Positions 11,350 through 41,392 of a stretch of 64,000 nucleotides of DNA are shown one piece after another. Below the pieces are notes generated by a model. That model had not been told where the DNA came from. It made no database searches and saw nothing but the letters and a program-made list of their open reading frames with translations. The stretch comes from Faecalibacterium sp. I4-3-84 (GTDB lineage Bacteria; Bacillota; Clostridia; Oscillospirales; Ruminococcaceae): the NCBI RefSeq assembly GCF_023347255.1, contig NZ_CP094466.1:2108001-2172000 (forward strand). Reading direction: 5' to 3'. The position numbers and the translations under genes are program-made. The first letter of the stretch is position 1, and every line of letters begins with the position of its first letter.

Positions 11350-11769
11350 CCTACGCGATATTGGAACGCTTCTTTCCCCTTTTCCGTTCCATACCGCAAG
11401 ACAGCCCCCTGCTCTTTGATAAAGAAAGCGGCGCAATAGAACGGCGACGCAGCATAAGGCAAATCGGATACGTTCCTTTTGTGCCGAGCCATGCGGCGGG
11501 TACGCCATGACCTTTCTCTTAACAGAAAAGCGAGCGAGAAATACCACACCGTAAAGCAGGGATAGCAGCCTGCGGGCGATAACGCACAGAATACATAATG
11601 ATACTTCCTTACAGCCATAGTCCGAGCGTTAGAAGCGTCGCAGGCAATGGGTAGGGCTTCGGCAGACCGCCGGAGGGGTGCAAGTCCCATGAGGTTACGC
11701 TAATAGCCGTCCGATTAAAGCCTATGTTACAGATTGATTTTTGACCCATTAAGAAAGGGGGACGACAAA
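11350..11769. other. Non-coding spacer before xis
   Basis: 420 bp without a supportable gene. A block at about 11640-11705 reads GCAATGGGTAGGGC...GGAGGGGTGCAAGTCCC and is locally GC-rich with self-complementary pieces; it may be a structured leader RNA for xis-int but I cannot assign it. Confidence 0.4.
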
Positions 11770-23144: not shown

Positions 23145-23154
23145 AAAACCATCA

Positions 23155-23252
23155 ACAGAGTAAGACCATGTGCGTTAAGTGCCGCATCAACGGGGAGTTG
23201 TGCTGTGGACGAAGGTGTACCCGCGGTGCATGGTCTGCATCCCGCTGCTGCA
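23155..23252 (+). ncRNA. Tetrahydrofolate (THF) riboswitch
   Basis: The leader shows the conserved blocks of the THF (folT) riboswitch in order: AGAGTA, GCGTTAAGTG, GGGGAGTTG, ACGAA, CCGCGGTG and TGCATCCCGCT. GACCATG near 23164 pairs with CATGGTC near 23238, forming the long helix. It binds reduced folates, and in known cases sits upstream of folT. Here it is directly followed by a terminator and the folT-folC pair, so high THF should reduce transcription. Confidence 0.88.
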
Positions 23253-31991: not shown

Positions 31992-32241
31992 GGGAAAACC
32001 CTCTCTTTCCTGATTCCGATGAAGCTGCTCTGAATAAAAATCACGCCTCTGCCATGAAAACAGCCTCTGACTCTTTTGACCATATTATAATAGCACACCC
32101 GGACGGGAATGTACAGCAATATGCTAGGAATTGGCATGACTAACCCTGAATCTGGCGGGGAAAAACTGCTTTTGGGTAGAGTAGCTAAAATTCAGGGAGG
32201 GAAGCGGCAAACCTTTTTGCAACAAAATATATGCGGAAGCA

Positions 32242-32271
32242 TTGACACATTTCGCGCTTCTATGCTAAAAT
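32242..32271 (+). promoter_or_regulatory. pyrC operon promoter
   Basis: TTGACA (32242-32247), 18-bp spacer ending TATGC, TAAAAT (32266-32271). Predicted start about 32278, giving a leader of about 210 nt. Confidence 0.8.
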
Positions 32272-32311
32272 ATTATGAAAAGATTCCAGACTTATAAAAG
32301 GAGACAGCACC

Positions 32312-32401
32312 ATGCAGAAAAGCGCGATGTGCACCAAACTGAACAAGCAGTTCGCATCCGGTTTTGCCGTGGGTTCGTTGTTTCCTTTTTTTGTGGAATG
32401 A
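32312..32401 (+). CDS. pyr leader peptide (29 aa)
   Basis: AAAAGGAG at 32297-32304 precedes ATG 32312. The 29-codon frame reads MQKSAMCTKLNKQFASGFAV then GSLFPFFVE and stops at TGA 32399-32401, directly against a terminator stem that starts at 32403. The last third of the gene is T-rich (TTGTTTCCTTTTTTTG, codons Leu-Phe-Pro-Phe-Phe). This is the layout of the E. coli pyrBI leader: when UTP is scarce, polymerase pauses in the U-tract, the ribosome catches up, covers the stem and prevents termination. There is no PyrR-type binding loop that I can see. Confidence 0.75.
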   Translation: MQKSAMCTKLNKQFASGFAVGSLFPFFVE

Positions 32402-32402
32402 G

Positions 32403-32433
32403 CTTTTCCCTTTGCGGGGAAAAGTTTTTTTTT
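32403..32433 (+). terminator. pyr attenuator terminator
   Basis: CTTTTCCC (32403-32410) / GGGAAAAG (32417-32424), TTTGCG loop, then nine T. Lies between the leader peptide stop and pyrC. Confidence 0.9.
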
Positions 32434-32486
32434 GCCCGTAAGCCGGAAAGCCGAACCAGACAAACGCAAATCAGGAGGGAACTGCG

Positions 32487-33677
32487 ATGCTGCTTGTAAA
32501 TGCTGTGAACACCGAAGGAAGACCGCTTGAGATTTTTGTAAAGGACGGCAGGATCGCTGCTGTAGGTCAGGAGCTGGAGGCACTGGCCGGGGAGAACGAA
32601 ACGGTCATTGATGCCGACGGGCTGACCGTGCTGCCCGCCTTTGTGGACCTGCACTGCCACTGGCGCACCCCGGGCTTTGAGTACAAGGAGGACATCGAGA
32701 CCGGCAGCCGCGCCGCAGCCGCCGGCGGTTACACCTTCGTGAATCTGATGCCCAACACAAAGCCGGTGTGCTCTTCTGCGGCACAGGCGTTCATGGTGGA
32801 GCAGAAGGCTGCCGAAGCAGGTCTGTGCGATGTGAACCAGACCGTCTCCATCACCGAGAACTTTGACGGTGTGAGCATCGACCACCTCAAGACTCTGCCT
32901 GCCGGTGTGAAGTTCATCACCGAGGATGGCCACGGCGTGCAGGACAATGCCACCATGGCAAAGGCTTTCGCTATCTGCACCCAGAAGGACATCACCGTGA
33001 TGAGCCATGCCGAGGATATGGAGATCAGCCCGTGGGACTACCGTCTGGCTGAGGACATCGAGACGGTGCGCAACTGCTGGCTGAGCGAATACTACCAGAC
33101 CAAGCTGCACATGTGCCACGTGTCCACCCGCGGTGCGCTGGATGCCATCCAGATGGCAAAGCTGCGGGGGGCACCCGTCACCTGCGAGGTGACCCCGCAC
33201 CACCTGTGGTTCACCAATGATACCTGCGATTACCGTGTGAACCCGCCCATCCGCACCGCCGACGATGTGCAGGCGCTGGTGGACGGCATCCGCACCGGCA
33301 TCGTGGATGCCATTGCCACCGACCACGCGCCCCACTCCGAAGAGGACAAGCTGAAGGGCATGGCCGGTATGGTGGGCAGCGAGACCGCTTTTGGCGTCTG
33401 CTACACCAAGCTCTGCAAGCAGGAAGGCCTGCCGCTGGAAGTGCTGGTGCACCTGATGAGCACCCGCCCGGCAGAAATTCTGGGCCTTGCCAAGGGTCAG
33501 CTGGAGCCGGGCTACGATGCCGACATGGTGCTGGTAGATCTGGATACCCCCTACACTGTGGACAAGGACAGGCTGCACTCCAGATCTCACAACACCCCGT
33601 TCGACGGTGCCCAGCTGTTTGGTAAGGTCTGTGCCACCATCAAGGGCGGCAAGCTGACTTATCAGGCAGAGGATTGA
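32487..33677 (+). CDS. pyrC: Dihydroorotase
   Basis: 396-aa type I zinc amidohydrolase closing carbamoyl-aspartate to dihydroorotate. Motifs: AFVDLHCHWRTPGFEYKEDI (HxH), NLMPNTKPV, MSHAEDM (His), HMCHVST (His), IATDHAPHSEEDK (catalytic Asp). Ribosome site AGGAGGG before ATG 32487. First gene of the attenuated pyr unit; pyrF follows after 57 bp. Confidence 0.96.
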   Translation: MLLVNAVNTEGRPLEIFVKDGRIAAVGQELEALAGENETVIDADGLTVLPAFVDLHCHWRTPGFEYKEDIETGSRAAAAGGYTFVNLMPNTKPVCSSAAQAFMVEQKAAEAGLCDVNQTVSITENFDGVSIDHLKTLPAGVKFITEDGHGVQDNATMAKAFAICTQKDITVMSHAEDMEISPWDYRLAEDIETVRNCWLSEYYQTKLHMCHVSTRGALDAIQMAKLRGAPVTCEVTPHHLWFTNDTCDYRVNPPIRTADDVQALVDGIRTGIVDAIATDHAPHSEEDKLKGMAGMVGSETAFGVCYTKLCKQEGLPLEVLVHLMSTRPAEILGLAKGQLEPGYDADMVLVDLDTPYTVDKDRLHSRSHNTPFDGAQLFGKVCATIKGGKLTYQAED

Positions 33678-33734: not shown

Positions 33735-34601
33735 ATGACCAACATGGACAAACTGTATGAAGCTGTGGAAGCCCGCGGCCCGGTGTGCGTAGGTCTGGAT
33801 ACCGATTTCAGCTACCTGCCCGCCGACTTCGTGGACAGCACCCTGACGAAGGGCGAGAACATCGTGCGCTTCAACAAGAGGCTCATCGATGCCACCAAGG
33901 CCGTGGCAGGCTGCTACAAGGTGCAGATCGCTTACTACGAGTCTCTGGGCCTTGAGGGCATGAAGGCCTACGCCGACACCCTGAAGGCTGTGCGTGAGGC
34001 CGGTGTGCCGGTGATCGCCGACATCAAGCGCGGCGACATTGCCAAGACCGCCGAGATGTACGCCATGGGTCACTTTACTGGCGATTTCGAGAGTGATTTC
34101 GTCACGCTGGCACCCTATATGGGTCTGGACTCCATCAGCCCCTACCTGCCCTACGCCGAAAAGCAGGGCAAGGGCATGTTCGTGCTCTGCCGCACCTCCA
34201 ACGGCGGTGCCAAGGACTTTGAGTATGAGAAGCTGGCCGACGGCCGCCACGTCTACGATCTGGTGGGCGACAAGCTGAATGCTCTGGGCAAGGACTACAT
34301 GGGCGAGCACGGCTACTCCTCCATCGGTCTGGTCATCGGCGGCACCCACATCGAGGAGGCCACCGAGATCCGTGCAAAGTATCAGGACAGCTTCTTCCTG
34401 ATCCCCGGCTACGGCGCACAGGGCGGCAAGGCCGAGGACATTGCCCAGTACCTCACCAAGGGCAACGGCGGCGTGGTCAACTCCAGCCGCGGCATCCTGC
34501 TGGCCTATAAGAAGCAGCCGGGCACTGCCTTTGACGAAGCCGCTTACAACGAATGTGTGAATATGAAGGAGGCCATTGCTCATGCGTGCAGCCTGCTGTG
34601 A
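33735..34601 (+). CDS. pyrF: Orotidine 5'-phosphate decarboxylase
   Basis: 288-aa TIM-barrel enzyme for the last UMP step, of the longer (type 2) subfamily. VCVGLDTDFSYLP start, catalytic VIADIKRGDIAKTAEMYA (Asp-Lys-x-x-Asp), LAPYMGLDSISPYL, and phosphate loop NSSRGILLAYKK. AGGAGG before ATG 33735. The 3' end overlaps pyrK by 20 bp and supplies its ribosome site. Confidence 0.96.
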   Translation: MTNMDKLYEAVEARGPVCVGLDTDFSYLPADFVDSTLTKGENIVRFNKRLIDATKAVAGCYKVQIAYYESLGLEGMKAYADTLKAVREAGVPVIADIKRGDIAKTAEMYAMGHFTGDFESDFVTLAPYMGLDSISPYLPYAEKQGKGMFVLCRTSNGGAKDFEYEKLADGRHVYDLVGDKLNALGKDYMGEHGYSSIGLVIGGTHIEEATEIRAKYQDSFFLIPGYGAQGGKAEDIAQYLTKGNGGVVNSSRGILLAYKKQPGTAFDEAAYNECVNMKEAIAHACSLL

Positions 34602-35355
34602 AGCCACTGTCCTGCGCAATGAGGTCATTGCCCCGGACATCCGTCTGCTGACGGTGGTCTGGCCGGACCGCGACCACGCACCCCACGCAGGCCAGTTCTT
34701 TACCCTGCGTGCATGGGGCGCAGACGAAGCCCCCTTCCTGTCCCGGCCCATCAGCGTGCACCGCTGGAACCCGGACAGCAGCACCATCGAGTTTCTGTAT
34801 CAGGTGGTGGGCGAGGGCACTGAAAAGATCGCGCAGCTCAAAATGAAGGATACCTTCCAGCTCACCGGCCCTATGGGCAACGGCTTTGATGTGCCGGACA
34901 TCCTGAGCAAGTACAAAAAGATCGCTGTGGTGGGCGGCGGCATCGGCACCGCGCCCATGTTCCAGCTCACCCGCGAGCTGGCAGCAGCAGGTGTGAAGCC
35001 GGACGTGTTCTTCGGCTTCCGGGATGCCCCCTACTGCATGGAGGAGTATCGCGAGATCGCAAACCTCGTCAAGGTGTCCACCGACACCGGCGCAGTGGGC
35101 TTCCACGGCTTTGTCACCCAGCTGTACGACCCCGCCGACTACGATGTGGTGCTGGTGTGCGGCCCCACGGTCATGATGAAGAACGCCGCCCGCCTGTGTG
35201 CCGAGAAGGGTACCCCCTGCTTTGTGAGCATGGAAAAGAAGATGGCCTGCGGCATTGGTGCCTGCCTTGGCTGCACCTGCGAGACCAGGGGCGGCGAGGG
35301 CAAGAGCGTGTGCAAGAACGGCCCGGTATTTGATGCAACGGAGGTGTTCTTCTGA
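34582..35355 (+). CDS. pyrK: Dihydroorotate dehydrogenase electron-transfer subunit
   Basis: 257-aa FAD/[2Fe-2S] subunit that passes electrons from PyrD to NAD. ATG 34582 has GAAGGAGG; the TTG at 34576 is less well spaced. FAD domain (FLSRPISVHRWN), NAD-binding VVGGGIGTAPMFQL, and the C-terminal iron-sulfur cysteines in CGIGACLGCTCETRGGEGKSVC spanning about residues 217-238. Overlaps pyrF and touches pyrD (TGATG). Confidence 0.95.
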   Translation: MRAACCEATVLRNEVIAPDIRLLTVVWPDRDHAPHAGQFFTLRAWGADEAPFLSRPISVHRWNPDSSTIEFLYQVVGEGTEKIAQLKMKDTFQLTGPMGNGFDVPDILSKYKKIAVVGGGIGTAPMFQLTRELAAAGVKPDVFFGFRDAPYCMEEYREIANLVKVSTDTGAVGFHGFVTQLYDPADYDVVLVCGPTVMMKNAARLCAEKGTPCFVSMEKKMACGIGACLGCTCETRGGEGKSVCKNGPVFDATEVFF

Positions 35356-36281
35356 TGGCTGACCTGAAAACCAACCTGCTGGGCTTTGTGATGAACAGCC
35401 CGGTCATCGGCGCATCCGGTACTGTGGGCTACGGTGTGGAGTACGAAGAGCTGGCAGACTTTGCCAAGATCGGCGGCATCTCCGGCAAGGGCCTGACCCT
35501 GCACGGCCAGTACGGCAACAAGGGCGAGCGCCTGTGGGAGACCCCCTCCGGCCTCATCAACAGCATCGGCCTGCAGAACCCCGGCGTGCAGCACTTCATT
35601 GACGTGGAGCTGCCCGAGATGCTGGAACTGAAGCAGAAGTACGGCACGGTGGCCATTGCCAACCTTGGCGGCCACAGCGAGGAAGAGTATGTGGAAGGTG
35701 CCGCGATGCTGAGCGACAGCGCAGTGGACATCGTGGAGCTGAACATCTCCTGCCCCAACGTCAAGGTGGGCGGCATGGCCTACGGCGTGAAAGCCGAAGC
35801 TGCCGGTGAGGTGGTGCGCATGGTGCGCGCTGCCTGCAAAAAGCCCCTGATGGTCAAGCTGAGCCCGCAGGCCGAGAACATCCCTGAGATGTGCAAGGCT
35901 GTGGAAGCCGCCGGCGCGGACGCCATCAGCCTGACCAACACCTTCCAGGCCTGCGCCATTGATCTGGAAAAGCGCCGCCCGGTGTTCAACAACATCTTTG
36001 CGGGCCTGTCCGGCCCGGCGGTGCGGCCCATCGCCCTGCGCATGGTGTGGCAGGCCGTGGGCGCTGTGAACATCCCGGTGGTGGGTCTGGGCGGCATCGC
36101 CACGGGCCGTGACGCACTGGAGTTCATCATGGCCGGTGCTGCGGCGGTGCAGGTGGGTGCCGCAAACTTTGCCAACCCCCGCGCCATGGAGACCATTGCC
36201 GACGAGATGGCCGCATGGATGGACAAGAACGGCGTGAAAACGCTGGACGAGATCCGCGGATGTGCCCGGAATGCTGAATAA
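35355..36281 (+). CDS. pyrD: Dihydroorotate dehydrogenase, NAD-linked (class 1B)
   Basis: 308-aa FMN TIM-barrel catalytic subunit. NSPVIGASGTVGYG start, PSGLINSIGLQNPG, catalytic Cys in ELNISCPNVK, KLSPQAENI, phosphate-binding VGLGGIATGRDALEFIMAGAAAVQVG. Class 1B is shown by the Cys and by adjacency to pyrK. Its ATG overlaps the pyrK stop by one base. Last gene of the first pyr unit. Confidence 0.95.
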   Translation: MADLKTNLLGFVMNSPVIGASGTVGYGVEYEELADFAKIGGISGKGLTLHGQYGNKGERLWETPSGLINSIGLQNPGVQHFIDVELPEMLELKQKYGTVAIANLGGHSEEEYVEGAAMLSDSAVDIVELNISCPNVKVGGMAYGVKAEAAGEVVRMVRAACKKPLMVKLSPQAENIPEMCKAVEAAGADAISLTNTFQACAIDLEKRRPVFNNIFAGLSGPAVRPIALRMVWQAVGAVNIPVVGLGGIATGRDALEFIMAGAAAVQVGAANFANPRAMETIADEMAAWMDKNGVKTLDEIRGCARNAE

Positions 36282-36343
36282 TCCAATTGATATACCAGCA
36301 AAATGCTAATTTATACGCATAAAAACAAAGTCGCTGCATAAAT

Positions 36344-36372
36344 TTGCAAATCACGCAAAAGCGTGGTACAAT
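36344..36372 (+). promoter_or_regulatory. pyrE promoter with palindrome in its spacer
   Basis: TTGCAA (36344-36349), 17-bp spacer, TACAAT (36367-36372). The spacer contains CACGC-AAAA-GCGTG (36352-36365), a perfect dyad that looks like a repressor site. Confidence 0.7.
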
Positions 36373-36414
36373 ACCGTTCAAAAGACATTTTTATAAAAGA
36401 GAGGGAGAAGTACA

Positions 36415-37008
36415 ATGAGTGAAGCACTTGAGATCCTGAAGAGCTGTGACGCGTTCCTGGAAGGCCACTTCCTGCTGTCCTCCGGCCGCCATTCCAGCGC
36501 ATACTGCCAGATGGCCTACCTGCAGCAGTACCCCGACCGCTGCGCCGAGGTGATGAAGACCGTGGCAGATAAGGTCAAGGAAATGGACGTGGATGTGATC
36601 GTCGGCCCGGCCATGGGCGGCATCGTGTACGCCTACGAGCTGGCCCGCCAGACCGGCAAGCGCGCCATCTTTACCGAGCGCGTGGATAATGTGATGACCC
36701 TGAAGCGCTTCGCCATCCACCCGGGTGAGAAGTGCCTCATCGCTGAGGACGTGGTCACCACCGGCATCTCCTCTCTGGAGACCAAGCGCGTGATCGAAGA
36801 GAACGGCGGCATCTGCGTGGGCATCACCTGCGTGGTGGACCGCACCAAGCCCGAGGCTCCGTCTCCCATTCCCATCGTGGCAAGCGCCCTCAAGCTGGAT
36901 CTGCCCAACTACGCACCGGAAGAGTGCCCCATCTGCAAGGAGGGCAAGCTGCCGCTGGTGCATCTGGGCAGCCGCAAGATGAAGCAGGAAGCAAAGCAGA
37001 CCCTGTAA
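36415..37008 (+). CDS. pyrE: Orotate phosphoribosyltransferase
   Basis: 197-aa type I phosphoribosyltransferase joining orotate and PRPP. GHFLLSSGRHSSAYCQ start, VIVGPAMGGIVYAYELAR, PRPP loop CLIAEDVVTTGISS, and a C-terminal Cys pair (PEECPICKEGKLPLV) seen in clostridial/archaeal-type PyrE. GAGGGAG before ATG 36415. Own promoter, then carA 21 bp downstream. Confidence 0.95.
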   Translation: MSEALEILKSCDAFLEGHFLLSSGRHSSAYCQMAYLQQYPDRCAEVMKTVADKVKEMDVDVIVGPAMGGIVYAYELARQTGKRAIFTERVDNVMTLKRFAIHPGEKCLIAEDVVTTGISSLETKRVIEENGGICVGITCVVDRTKPEAPSPIPIVASALKLDLPNYAPEECPICKEGKLPLVHLGSRKMKQEAKQTL

Positions 37009-37029
37009 TGTGTTGAAACGAGGAAAACT

Positions 37030-38139
37030 ATGAACGCATATCTTCTTTTGGCAAATGGCATGGTCTTTGCCGGCCAGTCGGTGGGTGCCGAGGGTGTCAC
37101 CGTGGGCGAGGTGGTCTTTGCCACCGGCATGGTGGGCTTTCAGGAGACCCTGACCGACCCCAGCTACTATGGCCAGATCATCACCCAGACCTACCCCCTT
37201 ATCGGCAACTACGGCATGAATAAGGACGACATGGAGTCCGACCGCATCTGGGCAAAGGGCTACATCGTGCGCGAGGCCTGCACCACCCCCTCCAACTGGC
37301 GCTGCGAGGAAACGCTGGACAGCTTTTTGAAAAAGAACAACACCATCGGCATTGAGGGCATCGACACCCGCCACCTGACCCGCATCATCCGCGAGAGCGG
37401 CGTGATGAACGGTGCCATCCTGACCACCTTCGATCCCGCCGACCCGGCCAACAAGGCCGAGACCGAGGCTCTGCTGGCTCAGATCCGCGCCTACGCCGTC
37501 ACCGATGCGGTGAAGAATGTTACCTGTGAAAAGCCCGAGGTGTTCAACCCGCAGGGCGAGACCCATATCGTGCTGATGCACTACGGCTGCAAGCGCAACA
37601 TCGTGCGCTGCCTTGTCAAGCGCGGCTGCAAGGTGACGGTCATGCCCGCCTTTGCAACGGCAGAGGAAATCAAGGCCCTTGCTCCGGACGGCATCATGCT
37701 GTCCAATGGTCCCGGCGACCCGGCGGAACCCGTGGAGGTCATCGAGAACCTCAAGCACATCTTTGAGCTGAACATCCCCACCTTCGGCATCTGTCTGGGC
37801 CACCAGCTGAGTGCTCTGGCAGCCGGTGCCAAGACCATGAAGCTCAAATACGGCCACCGCGGTGCCAACCAGCCCGTGACCGACTTTGAGTCCGGCCGCA
37901 CCTTCATCACCAGCCAGAACCACGGCTACGCTGTGGTGGGCGACGAGCTGCCCGCCGAGATGGGCGAGGTGGCACAGGTGAACGCCAACGACGGCACCTG
38001 TGAGGGCATCAAGTACAAGAAGTGGAACTGCTTCACCGTGCAGTTCCACCCGGAAGCAAACGGCGGCCCCAAGGATACCGAGTTTCTGTTCGACCGCTTC
38101 CTGAACAACGTCAAAGCAGCAAAAAAGGAGGCACGCTGA
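37030..38139 (+). CDS. carA: Carbamoyl-phosphate synthase small subunit
   Basis: 369-aa glutamine amidotransferase subunit supplying ammonia to CarB. N-terminal CPSase_sm domain (about 1-135, GYQET-like GFQETLTDPSYYGQIITQTYPLIGNYG), then a class I GATase with LSNGPGDP, nucleophile Cys in FGICLGHQL and His-Glu in VQFHPEANGGP. ACGAGGAAAACT before ATG 37030. carB starts 1 bp after its stop. Confidence 0.96.
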   Translation: MNAYLLLANGMVFAGQSVGAEGVTVGEVVFATGMVGFQETLTDPSYYGQIITQTYPLIGNYGMNKDDMESDRIWAKGYIVREACTTPSNWRCEETLDSFLKKNNTIGIEGIDTRHLTRIIRESGVMNGAILTTFDPADPANKAETEALLAQIRAYAVTDAVKNVTCEKPEVFNPQGETHIVLMHYGCKRNIVRCLVKRGCKVTVMPAFATAEEIKALAPDGIMLSNGPGDPAEPVEVIENLKHIFELNIPTFGICLGHQLSALAAGAKTMKLKYGHRGANQPVTDFESGRTFITSQNHGYAVVGDELPAEMGEVAQVNANDGTCEGIKYKKWNCFTVQFHPEANGGPKDTEFLFDRFLNNVKAAKKEAR

Positions 38140-38140
38140 A

Positions 38141-41100
38141 ATGCCGAAGGACCCTAGAATCAAGAAGGTGCTGGTCATTGGCTCCGGCCCCATCATCATT
38201 GGTCAGGCTGCGGAGTTCGACTACTCCGGCACGCAGGCCTGCCGCGCCCTGAAGGCAGAGGGCATCGAGACCGTTCTGCTGAACTCCAACCCCGCAACCA
38301 TCATGACCGACCCGGATGTGGCTGACCATGTTTACATCGAGCCCATGACGCTGGAAGTCGTGGAGCGCATTCTGGACATTGAAAAGCCGGACTCCGTGCT
38401 GCCGAACCTCGGCGGTCAGATGGGCCTGAATCTGTCCATGGAGCTGGCCCGCTCCGGCTATCTGGACCGCACCGGCATCCGTCTGCTGGCCTGCAAGCCC
38501 GAGACCATCGACCGTGCCGAGGACCGCGAGCTGTTCAAGGAGACGATGGAAAAGCTGCACCAGCCCATCATCCCCTCTGAGGTGGTGGAAACGCTGCAGG
38601 ACGCACTGGCCTGTGCCGACCGCATCGGCTACCCGGTCATCGTGCGCCCGGCCTTCACCATGGGCGGCACCGGCGGCGGCATCTGCGAGAACAAGGCAAA
38701 GCTCATCGAGATCGGCACCAACGGCCTGCGCCTTTCCCCCATCCATCAGATTCTTGTGGAAAAGTGCATCGCCGGCTGGAAAGAGATCGAGTATGAGGTC
38801 ATGCGCGACCACAAGGGCAACGTGATCACCGTGTGTAACATGGAGAACCTGGATCCTGTGGGCATCCACACCGGCGACTCGGTGGTCGTGGCTCCCTCCC
38901 AGACCCTGACCGACCACGAATACCAGATGCTGCGTACCGCCGCACTGGATATCATCACTGAGCTGGGCATTGAAGGCGGCTGCAACTGCCAGTTCGCCCT
39001 GAAACCGGACAGCTTTGACTATGCGGTCATCGAGGTCAACCCCCGTGTGTCCCGCTCTTCCGCACTGGCTTCCAAGGCCACCGGCTACCCCATTGCCAAG
39101 GTGGCCACCAAGATCGCCATCGGCTACACGCTGGACGAGATCACCAACGACGTCACCGGCAAGACCTGCGCCTGCTTTGAGCCTGCGCTGGACTACATCG
39201 TGGTCAAGTACCCGAAGTGGCCCTTTGATAAGTTCGTCTACGCCGACAAGTCTCTGGGCACCCAGATGATGGCCACCGGCGAGGTGATGAGCATTGGCAA
39301 TAGCTTTGAGGCTGCCATGATGAAGGCGGTCTCCTCCATCGAGCTGGGTATGGACACCCTGACCCACAAGCCCTTTGAAGAGCTGACCGATGACGAGATC
39401 GTGGCTCACATGCATGTTCAGGACGCGGAGCGCGTGTTCTGCGTGTACGAGGCCCTCAAGCGCGGCATCGACCACCAGACCATCTACCGCATCACCAAGA
39501 TCGACTGGTGGTTCCTGGACAAGATGCAGCATCTGGCAAACCTTGAGAATGGCCTTGCCAAGTGCAACGGCGTGCTGACCGAAGAGCAGTACAAGACTGC
39601 CAAGAAGTACGGCTTCCAGGATAAGACCATCAAGCGTCTGGCACAGGTAGACACCCTGCCTGTGGAGAACTACCGCGCCGGCTTCAAGATGGTGGATACC
39701 TGCGCTGCCGAGTTCTCGGCCAACACCCCTTACTTCTACTCTACCTACGACGGCGACAACGAAGCCGCTGAGTTCATTGCCGAGAAGGAAGCCGAAGCAT
39801 CTGCCAAGGGCGAGCCCAAGAAAAAGAAGGTTCTGGTCTTTGGTTCCGGCCCCATCCGCATCGGTCAGGGCATCGAGTTCGACTACTGCTCGGTGCACTG
39901 TGTGTGGACCCTGAAGAAGCACGGCTGCGAAGCCATCCTGGTCAACAACAACCCCGAGACCGTCTCCACCGACTTTGACACCGGCGACCGTCTGTACTTT
40001 GACCCGCTGAACCCGGAGAGCGTGGACAACATCATTGCCACCGAGAAGCCGGATGCCTGCGTGGTGCAGTTCGGCGGCCAGACCGCCATCAAGCTGGCAA
40101 AGCACATGGACGAGATCGGCCTGCCCATTCTGGGCACCCCGGCAGATGCCATCGATGAAGCAGAGGATCGTGAGCGCTTCGACGAGCTGCTGGAGCGCTG
40201 CAGGATCCCCCGCGCACCGGGCCGCACTGTCTTTAATCTGGACGAGGCTCTGGCTGCCGCCGACGAGATCGGCCTGCCGGTGCTGATGCGTCCCTCCTAC
40301 GTGCTGGGCGGTCAGAACATGATCGTGGCCTACACCAAGGCGGACGTGATCGAGTACATGGGCGTTATCACCGAGCATGTGGACATGGATCACCCTGTGC
40401 TGCTGGATAAGTATATTCTGGGCACCGAGTGCGAAGTGGATGCCATCTGCGACGGCGAAAACTTCCTGATCCCCGGCATTATGGAGCAGGTGGAGCGCAC
40501 CGGCGTGCACTCCGGCGACTCCATCTGTGTCTACCCGGCACAGCACCTGACTCAGGCTGAGATCGACACCATGGTGGATTACACCGGCCGCTTTGCCCGC
40601 GAGCTGCATGTCAACGGTCTGGTGAACGTGCAGTACGCAGTTTCCAACGGCAAGGTGTACGTCATTGAGGTGAACCCCCGTTCCTCCCGTACCGTGCCGT
40701 ATATCTCCAAGGTCACCGGCGTGCCCATGGTAGATCTGGCAGTGCGCTGCTGTCTGGGCGAAAAGCTGGCAGATATGGGCTACGGCACCGGCCTGCACCC
40801 CAACGCACCTTATGTGGCCGTCAAGGTGCCTGTGTTCAGCTTTGAAAAGCTGCACGGTGTGGATACCCAGTTCGGCCCCGAGATGAAGTCCACCGGCGAA
40901 GTGCTGGGCATTGCCCCCAACTACCACGATGCCCTGCTCAAGGGCCTCATCGGCGCGGGCTACACCTTCAAGACCCCCGGCCCTGCAAGCTGCTGCATCT
41001 TCACCGTGAAGGACAGCGACAAGCCGGAGTTCGTGGATATCGCATGGAAGCTCAAGAGCATGGGCTACAAGCTGTACGGTACCTCCGGCACCTGCGCATG

Positions 41101-41392
41101 GCTCAACAAGCACATGGTGCCCTGCAACGAAGTGCGCAATATGTCCGGCGAGTCGCCCAACATCGTGGACCTGCTGCAGAGCGGTCTGGTGGATTATGTG
41201 TTCTCTACCAGCGCTAAGGGCCGTGACCCCAAGCGCGACTCCGTCCGCCTGCGCCGCAAGGCTGTGGAGCTGAGCATCCCCTGCATCACCGCAGTGGATA
41301 CCGCCAACGCTCTGGTGAACTGCCTGCGCAGTGATCACAGTCTGGAAAATATCCCGCTGGTGGATATTGCCACCCTGTATCACCGCAAATAA
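38141..41392 (+). CDS. carB: Carbamoyl-phosphate synthase large subunit
   Basis: 1083-aa synthetase with two homologous halves. First half: VLVIGSGPIIIGQAAEFDYSG, ATP-grasp with RPAFTMGGTGGG. Second half starts after a Lys-rich linker (PKKKKVLVFGSGPIRIGQ, about residue 557) with RPSYVLGGQNM. The C-terminal MGS-like domain (about 945-1083) would carry allosteric control by nucleotides. Full length, no defects. Serves both pyrimidine and arginine synthesis. Confidence 0.97.
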   Translation: MPKDPRIKKVLVIGSGPIIIGQAAEFDYSGTQACRALKAEGIETVLLNSNPATIMTDPDVADHVYIEPMTLEVVERILDIEKPDSVLPNLGGQMGLNLSMELARSGYLDRTGIRLLACKPETIDRAEDRELFKETMEKLHQPIIPSEVVETLQDALACADRIGYPVIVRPAFTMGGTGGGICENKAKLIEIGTNGLRLSPIHQILVEKCIAGWKEIEYEVMRDHKGNVITVCNMENLDPVGIHTGDSVVVAPSQTLTDHEYQMLRTAALDIITELGIEGGCNCQFALKPDSFDYAVIEVNPRVSRSSALASKATGYPIAKVATKIAIGYTLDEITNDVTGKTCACFEPALDYIVVKYPKWPFDKFVYADKSLGTQMMATGEVMSIGNSFEAAMMKAVSSIELGMDTLTHKPFEELTDDEIVAHMHVQDAERVFCVYEALKRGIDHQTIYRITKIDWWFLDKMQHLANLENGLAKCNGVLTEEQYKTAKKYGFQDKTIKRLAQVDTLPVENYRAGFKMVDTCAAEFSANTPYFYSTYDGDNEAAEFIAEKEAEASAKGEPKKKKVLVFGSGPIRIGQGIEFDYCSVHCVWTLKKHGCEAILVNNNPETVSTDFDTGDRLYFDPLNPESVDNIIATEKPDACVVQFGGQTAIKLAKHMDEIGLPILGTPADAIDEAEDRERFDELLERCRIPRAPGRTVFNLDEALAAADEIGLPVLMRPSYVLGGQNMIVAYTKADVIEYMGVITEHVDMDHPVLLDKYILGTECEVDAICDGENFLIPGIMEQVERTGVHSGDSICVYPAQHLTQAEIDTMVDYTGRFARELHVNGLVNVQYAVSNGKVYVIEVNPRSSRTVPYISKVTGVPMVDLAVRCCLGEKLADMGYGTGLHPNAPYVAVKVPVFSFEKLHGVDTQFGPEMKSTGEVLGIAPNYHDALLKGLIGAGYTFKTPGPASCCIFTVKDSDKPEFVDIAWKLKSMGYKLYGTSGTCAWLNKHMVPCNEVRNMSGESPNIVDLLQSGLVDYVFSTSAKGRDPKRDSVRLRRKAVELSIPCITAVDTANALVNCLRSDHSLENIPLVDIATLYHRK

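Follow-up and report, generated by a model that had tools for sequence, protein, structure and literature searches.

The pyrimidine operon of Faecalibacterium sp. I4-3-84 is preceded by a leader that is probably a translation-coupled, UTP-sensitive transcription attenuator of the genes from pyrC to carB. The leader lies within a 64,000-nucleotide stretch of contig NZ_CP094466.1 (the window), and coupling of transcription to translation is strongly implied by the arrangement of its predicted elements, all on the forward strand. Promoter-like TTGACA (32242-32247) and TAAAAT (32266-32271) sequences, separated by an 18-nt spacer, place the predicted transcription start near 32278. The ribosome-binding site AAAAGGAGA (32296-32304), which forms a duplex of -9.3 kcal/mol with the 3' end of 16S rRNA, precedes an open reading frame (ORF) of 29 codons (32312-32401) that has no match in NCBIfam and ends with the codons GGT TCG TTG TTT CCT TTT TTT GTG GAA TGA, within which is a U-rich tract (32374-32392), the proposed UTP-sensitive slow zone. 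The TGA is at the foot of a terminator (32403-32433), one base from the 5' arm of the stem, CTTTTCCC (32403-32410), which pairs with GGGAAAAG (32417-32424) and is followed by nine T (32425-32433); the hairpin has a predicted energy of -14.3 kcal/mol including the outer pairs (32400-32427), and 53 nt separate the last T from pyrC. The ribosome-binding site is also inside the 5' arm (32296-32308) of a predicted helix, of which the 3' arm (32377-32389) is the proposed lid. A sequence-only reading of the window had described the 29-residue ORF with its strong ribosome site, the U-rich end, and the stop codon abutting a stem with nine T, all of which are present as described.

The first structural gene, pyrC (32487-33677, forward strand, TIGR00857), is followed on the same strand by pyrF, pyrK, pyrD, pyrE, carA and carB (33735-41392), in that order according to NCBIfam models. 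The pyrCFKD operon that had been recognised from the sequence alone is correct in these genes and incomplete, since pyrE, carA and carB also belong to it. Upstream of the operon is cysE, in the opposite orientation. An inverted repeat, TTTTGGGTAGAGTAGCTAAAA (32170-32190), lies between cysE and the pyr promoter in a single copy (none expected in the window), and its core recurs 5' of the pyr leader at 14 of 30 genus loci (L004-L017); it is a possible operator for cysE or pyrC. The source genome also has two pyrB genes outside the operon (L183 = G000:C1:2974621-2978520, and L184), one accompanied by a pyrI-like gene and located directly behind a gene of a GntR-family regulator, the other immediately after a purA-like gene (both pyrI and purA being recognised by eye); the leader is absent from both pyrB genes. 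Elsewhere in the window are a THF riboswitch (23154-23249) and a pemK RNA (11595-11692), both above the Rfam gathering scores.

The leader layout was found at all 30 usable loci of the genus (PyrC is present in 31 of 31 genomes, in G027 as a fragment only) and in 22 of 148 genomes of the family, ahead of pyrC or pyrB. Fifteen of the 22 have it before pyrC and four before pyrB-pyrI-pyrC; the rest consist of ORFs before pyrB that read through the terminator (L066, 65 codons; L069, 43 codons, stopping 18 nt 5' of pyrB) and of a leader before pyrB in G163. Statistics were derived from 51 leaders identified by a finder that requires an ORF end near or in the stem, with L066, L069, L105 and L130 added by hand; G163 and L162 are outside all of these statistics. 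The leader ORFs range from 16 to 65 codons, and in 43 of the 51 just 0-1 nt separate the stop codon from the stem core, the eight exceptions being L047 (7 nt before the stem), L013, L048, L065, L105 and L130 (inside it), and L066 and L069 (beyond it). The peptides diverge across genera, as expected from the earlier proposal that position would be conserved more than peptide; that proposal would have been weakened by an ORF peculiar to this genome, and the ORF is conserved in the genus and family genomes enumerated above. Conservation between genera extends to the letters of the stem, CTTTTCC/GGAAAAG; in L064, L069, L065, L066 and L036 the stem sequence has changed with pairing kept. The best promoter-like site of the leaders consists of TTGAC followed by A, T or G, a spacer of 17 or 18 nt, and TAxxxT, with the predicted transcription start 74-212 nt 5' of the stem (24 of 51 leaders scanned).

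The geometry of the leader is exceptional for the source genome, for which 464 kb (20 stretches plus the window) served as background. Among 62 ordinary gene-terminator pairs the median distance from stop codon to stem is 36 nt, and only two pairs are within 3 nt. Just one of 140 terminators outside long ORFs has the end of a strong-site ATG ORF (10-70 codons) at its foot, and this is the pyr leader. The sequence GGAAAAG-T9-G occurs once in the genome with one mismatch allowed, and the pyr leader is the sole match there of R1, a covariance model of the leader.

The leader ORF is probably translated, judging from its sequence. When an ATG is picked for the quality of its ribosome site, blind to frame, the ORF it opens ends between -10 and +20 relative to the stem for 25 of the 28 non-redundant leaders (6.0 under the null), a figure that denotes consistency and not discovery because the tested leaders came from a finder demanding such an ORF; two of the other three read through, and L041 uses TTG. 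The pN/pS ratio has its minimum in the coding frame, mildly so, at 0.47 and 0.70 in two groups, and the act of translation seems to be more important than the peptide. By geometry alone, a ribosome at the ORF end would overlap the stem: the stop codon marks the foot in 43 of 51 leaders, falls inside or past the stem in 7, and lies 7 nt short of it in 1. The layout argues strongly that termination would depend on translation of the leader. Terminators of E. coli are repressed almost completely by a stop codon placed a few nucleotides ahead of them, and for pyrBI this relation is steep (PMC4824070). Bacillota are assigned to the bacteria with runaway transcription (PMC13323073), in which trailing ribosomes should not control terminators; this counts against the coupled model.

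The U-rich end noted in the window is a property of the whole set of leaders: across 28 non-redundant leaders the final 27 nt are 50% T, versus 16% in pyrC, and the share of T climbs from 0.20 at position -90 to 0.57-0.58 beside the stem. T content exceeds that of every in-frame 27-nt window in the first 1.1 kb of the leader's own pyrC in 18 of 20 leaders, and is low in L041 (8 of the final 27 nt) and in L020 and L034 (10 each). The ratio of T to C at third positions is 126:48 in the last nine codons compared with 801:3502 in pyrC, and leader codons before the last nine are likewise T-rich (206:152). The ratio of TTT to TTC is 49:9 in the last nine codons versus 79:112 in pyrC, a contrast probably exaggerated by codon adaptation of pyrC. 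Given the preference for TTT over TTC and for T over C at third positions, it is RNA letters rather than phenylalanine that appear to be under selection at the leader end. The NusG pause motif TTNTTT is not enriched, being present in 18 of 28 leaders compared with 18.5 from shuffles. We infer with moderate confidence that UTP is the signal of the leader.

The sequence-only reading overlooked a helix that joins the U-rich tract to the ribosome site of the same leader. The region 5' of the terminator folds better than its shuffles (mean z of -1.78 in 28 leaders), and in 12 of 16 drawn leaders the ribosome site was seen by eye to pair with the U-rich stretch late in the ORF. The duplex of each leader's own site and own tract has a mean z of -1.61 against shuffles, stronger than in mismatched leader pairs (-0.50; p 7e-5) and in pyrC genes (+0.26; p 9e-9). 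Individually, the helix reaches p <= 0.05 in 12 of 28 leaders; its excess over shuffles is small in L032, L039, L047 and L050, and lacking (z > 0) in L041, L063, L064 and L105. Eight genus sequences share a 15-pair helix with 90.8% paired cells, the covariation score of which was reached by 3 of 500 shuffles and exceeded all six slid versions; four of its pairs have changed on both sides, a number reached by 44 of 500 shuffles, and in a second genus group (10 sequences) one of 29 predicted pairs has changed on both sides. As the tract emerges, the ribosome site is predicted to become less open, going from 0.65 to 0.20 in 28 leaders, versus 0.50 to 0.41 in 101 ordinary genes of the source genome. 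These predictions argue, at moderate strength, that the helix would act as a gate or lid on the ribosome site. The T share in the last 27 nt is equal at unpaired (0.48) and paired (0.51) positions, so the lid alone does not explain U-richness; on the best reading, the tract would be both a brake for RNA polymerase and a lid for the ribosome site. Comparable gating is known from the antibiotic-induced leader tlrB (PMC6851288), and no such helix for pyrimidine genes was found in the open-licence literature among the matches listed.

The proposed mechanism is as follows. RNA polymerase would start about 120 nt before the terminator and expose the leader ribosome site. With ample UTP, polymerase would pass through the U-rich ORF end fast, and the emerging tract would pair with the ribosome site and shut it; with no trailing ribosome, the terminator would fold and transcription would end. 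When UTP is scarce, polymerase would slow in the U-rich tract and the U-rich 5' arm of the stem, leaving the ribosome site open longer, and a loaded ribosome would translate as far as the stop codon and cover the 5' arm from its place at the stem foot, such that the terminator would be blocked and pyrC-carB transcribed. A more specific form of this model is put forward tentatively, at somewhat less than even odds: a kinetic gate in which the U-rich tract would be both UTP meter and lid, and the genes would stay off unless a ribosome loaded before the polymerase had added enough U to the transcript.

Regulation by PyrR, the usual means of premature termination before Bacillota pyr operons and one used by relatives in the same family, requires both the protein and an RNA loop (RF00515), neither of which was found in the 22 leader genomes among the 148. 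The sequence-only reading had seen no pyrR and no PyrR-binding loop, and the searches agree: the best match to the PyrR model in the source genome scores 26 bits versus a cut-off of 138, and RF00515 is absent from the window and from the source genome. A PyrR site in the leader, which had been named as evidence that would count against attenuation of this kind, was sought in the window, the source genome and the 22 leader genomes, with none found. PyrR is above the cut-off in 0 of 31 genus genomes and in 63 of 148 family genomes, and RF00515 (E <= 0.001) is in 51 of the 148. The mutual exclusion with the leader has hypergeometric probabilities of 1.3e-6 (PyrR) and 3.6e-5 (RF00515), to be read in the light of the non-independence of relatives and the checking of part of the PyrR genomes for leaders. 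Nineteen PyrR-positive upstream regions that were read contain no leader with its stop at the stem foot; one (L208) has a 41-codon ORF with a weak site that runs past the terminator, and 13 contain RF00515 at E <= 0.01. Among 40 upstream regions of family genomes without PyrR, six contain leaders (L063, L064, L065, L066, L068, L069) and no leader was recognised in 34, for a minority of which the operon start is established. The existence of PyrR-less relatives with the same layout suggests a separately evolved version of E. coli-type control.

Four other explanations were weighed against UTP-sensitive attenuation. The leader might be a coupled attenuator that senses the general timing of translation and transcription (ribosome supply, growth rate or ppGpp) and not UTP, its U-rich tract serving mainly as a lid; the pairing of tract and ribosome site beyond chance, which alone favours U and C, fits this explanation, as does a terminator-blocking geometry that requires no UTP signal. 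It is nevertheless unlikely in view of the equal frequency of T at unpaired and paired positions, the excess of T over C (0.50 versus 0.19 in the last 27 nt), the restriction of R1 matches in the source genome to the pyr leader, and the absence of PyrR from the 22 leader genomes. Rather less likely still is an RNA-binding protein or ligand that acts on the leader helix or terminator stem, with the ORF secondary: the stem letters kept across genera and some covariation in the helix are what such a site would produce, but the stem varies with pairing kept in the five leaders named above, the peptide diverges, as does the middle of the leader, neither the window leader nor those of 16 relatives fit any Rfam family, and the frame and stop codon are kept beyond the needs of a protein site.

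A classical amino-acid attenuator that senses charged tRNA-Phe would account for phenylalanine being the commonest residue in the last nine codons (58 of 252), but is very improbable given the preference for TTT over TTC, the single phenylalanine in the last nine codons of L050 and L034, the pyrimidine products of the operon, and the lack of a general antiterminator; upstream pairing of the 5' arm of the terminator has a z of -0.57 in the window leader and a mean of -0.45 in 28 leaders, falling below -2 only in L020, L044, L063 and L064. That an ordinary constitutive terminator came by chance to lie behind a small unrelated gene is the least credible explanation of all: short ORFs are readily found, but not with a layout kept at every usable genus locus and across genera, or with a stop-to-stem distance so extreme for the source genome.

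The preferred reading, a UTP-sensitive coupled attenuator, places the leader beside two attenuators of E. coli. The earlier comparison with pyrBI stands as regards the leader ORF, the U-rich end and the terminator, whereas the geometry in the window is closer to that of rph-pyrE. Both the window leader and pyrBI have a U-rich ORF and an intrinsic terminator followed by T8-9 GCCC before pyrimidine genes. Analysed with the same scripts, pyrL of E. coli has 44 codons, 11 T among the 27 nt that precede the stem, and a hairpin of -15.3 kcal/mol with T8 GCCC, and its ORF reads through to 3 nt before pyrB, much as that of L069 (43 codons) also reads through the terminator. In contrast, the window ORF ends at the stem foot (read-through is confined to L066 and L069), its U-rich tract abuts the stem, the host belongs to the Bacillota and not the Enterobacteria, and the helix with the ribosome site is statistically supported here, whereas the E. 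coli duplex has a z of +0.47. The ribosome site of E. coli K-12 pyrL (L270) is predicted to close, from an openness of 0.65 to 0.02, with the transcript start assumed to be 23 nt before the ATG. The rph-pyrE attenuator of E. coli has a translated ORF that ends shortly before the terminator, as in the window, but rph (present in truncated form in the K-12 sequence that was read) is an enzyme gene, whereas the window ORF is a dedicated leader.

The nearest Bacillota counterpart is tlrB (yxjB) of B. subtilis, which likewise has a leader peptide, a sequestering hairpin and polymerase pausing: initiation on the leader must beat the polymerase completing the sequestering hairpin, pausing can synchronise the ribosome with polymerase in this Bacillota species, and a ribosome near the stop codon can block the terminator (PMC6851288). 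It differs in that it responds to stalling caused by tylosin at an RYR motif, its genes are not pyrimidine genes, and its hairpin also hides the ribosome site of the downstream gene (PMC6851288). A survey from 2010 was aware, apart from ermC, of no leader-peptide systems beyond the Proteobacteria and Actinobacteria, and contributed one for histidine in bacilli (PMC2965389). No UTP-sensitive pyr leader in Bacillota was found in the open-licence literature among the matches listed, and an earlier report in print is possible.

Wider searches were made with R1 under the stricter filters of Infernal, with which weak matches may be lost. In the order, 12 of 394 genomes have matches at E <= 0.001, of which eight are family leader genomes and the others are G192, G199, G332 and G447; in the class, four of 391 have matches (G000, G199 again, G557 and G740). 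The six outlying matches (G192, G199, G332, G447, G557 and G740; 31-34 bits) were rejected as chance because no pyr gene was seen by eye among the ORFs within about 1.5 kb downstream; in G740 the model matched the end of a different gene, ahead of a terminator. Eighty named PyrC loci, scanned up to 3 kb upstream and judged by eye, yielded three comparable leaders. Those of Parvimonas parva (L105) and an uncultured Clostridia metagenome-assembled genome (L130) are ahead of pyrB, the former (about 1339-1596) being a 64-codon phenylalanine- and U-rich ORF that ends inside the terminator; that of Anaerotruncus sp. G3 (L162, about 2798-2903) has 23 codons, a T-rich end and a stop codon 6 nt before the stem, and is followed by pyrC. 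PyrR-like boxes were seen by eye in L103, L104, L106, L107 and L117. The 30 PyrB loci closest to Parvimonas in the class sample have other terminators, many of the GCCTTCC type, or none, and no ATG ORF that ends at a stem, so that the Parvimonas leader is isolated among its nearest PyrB loci and lends the model little weight.

If the kinetic gate is real, pyrimidine synthesis in these bacteria would be controlled by an independently evolved, coupled attenuator that replaces PyrR, in a phylum held to lack such coupling, and pyrL of E. coli may carry an overlooked lid of the same kind. Logic like that of pyrBI and pyrE would be seen outside the Enterobacteria, and the leader would be a natural reporter of whether ribosomes keep pace with RNA polymerase in the Bacillota, a phylum counted among the runaway transcribers. 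For gut Clostridia that lack PyrR, it would offer a testable answer to the question of how pyrimidine synthesis is controlled.
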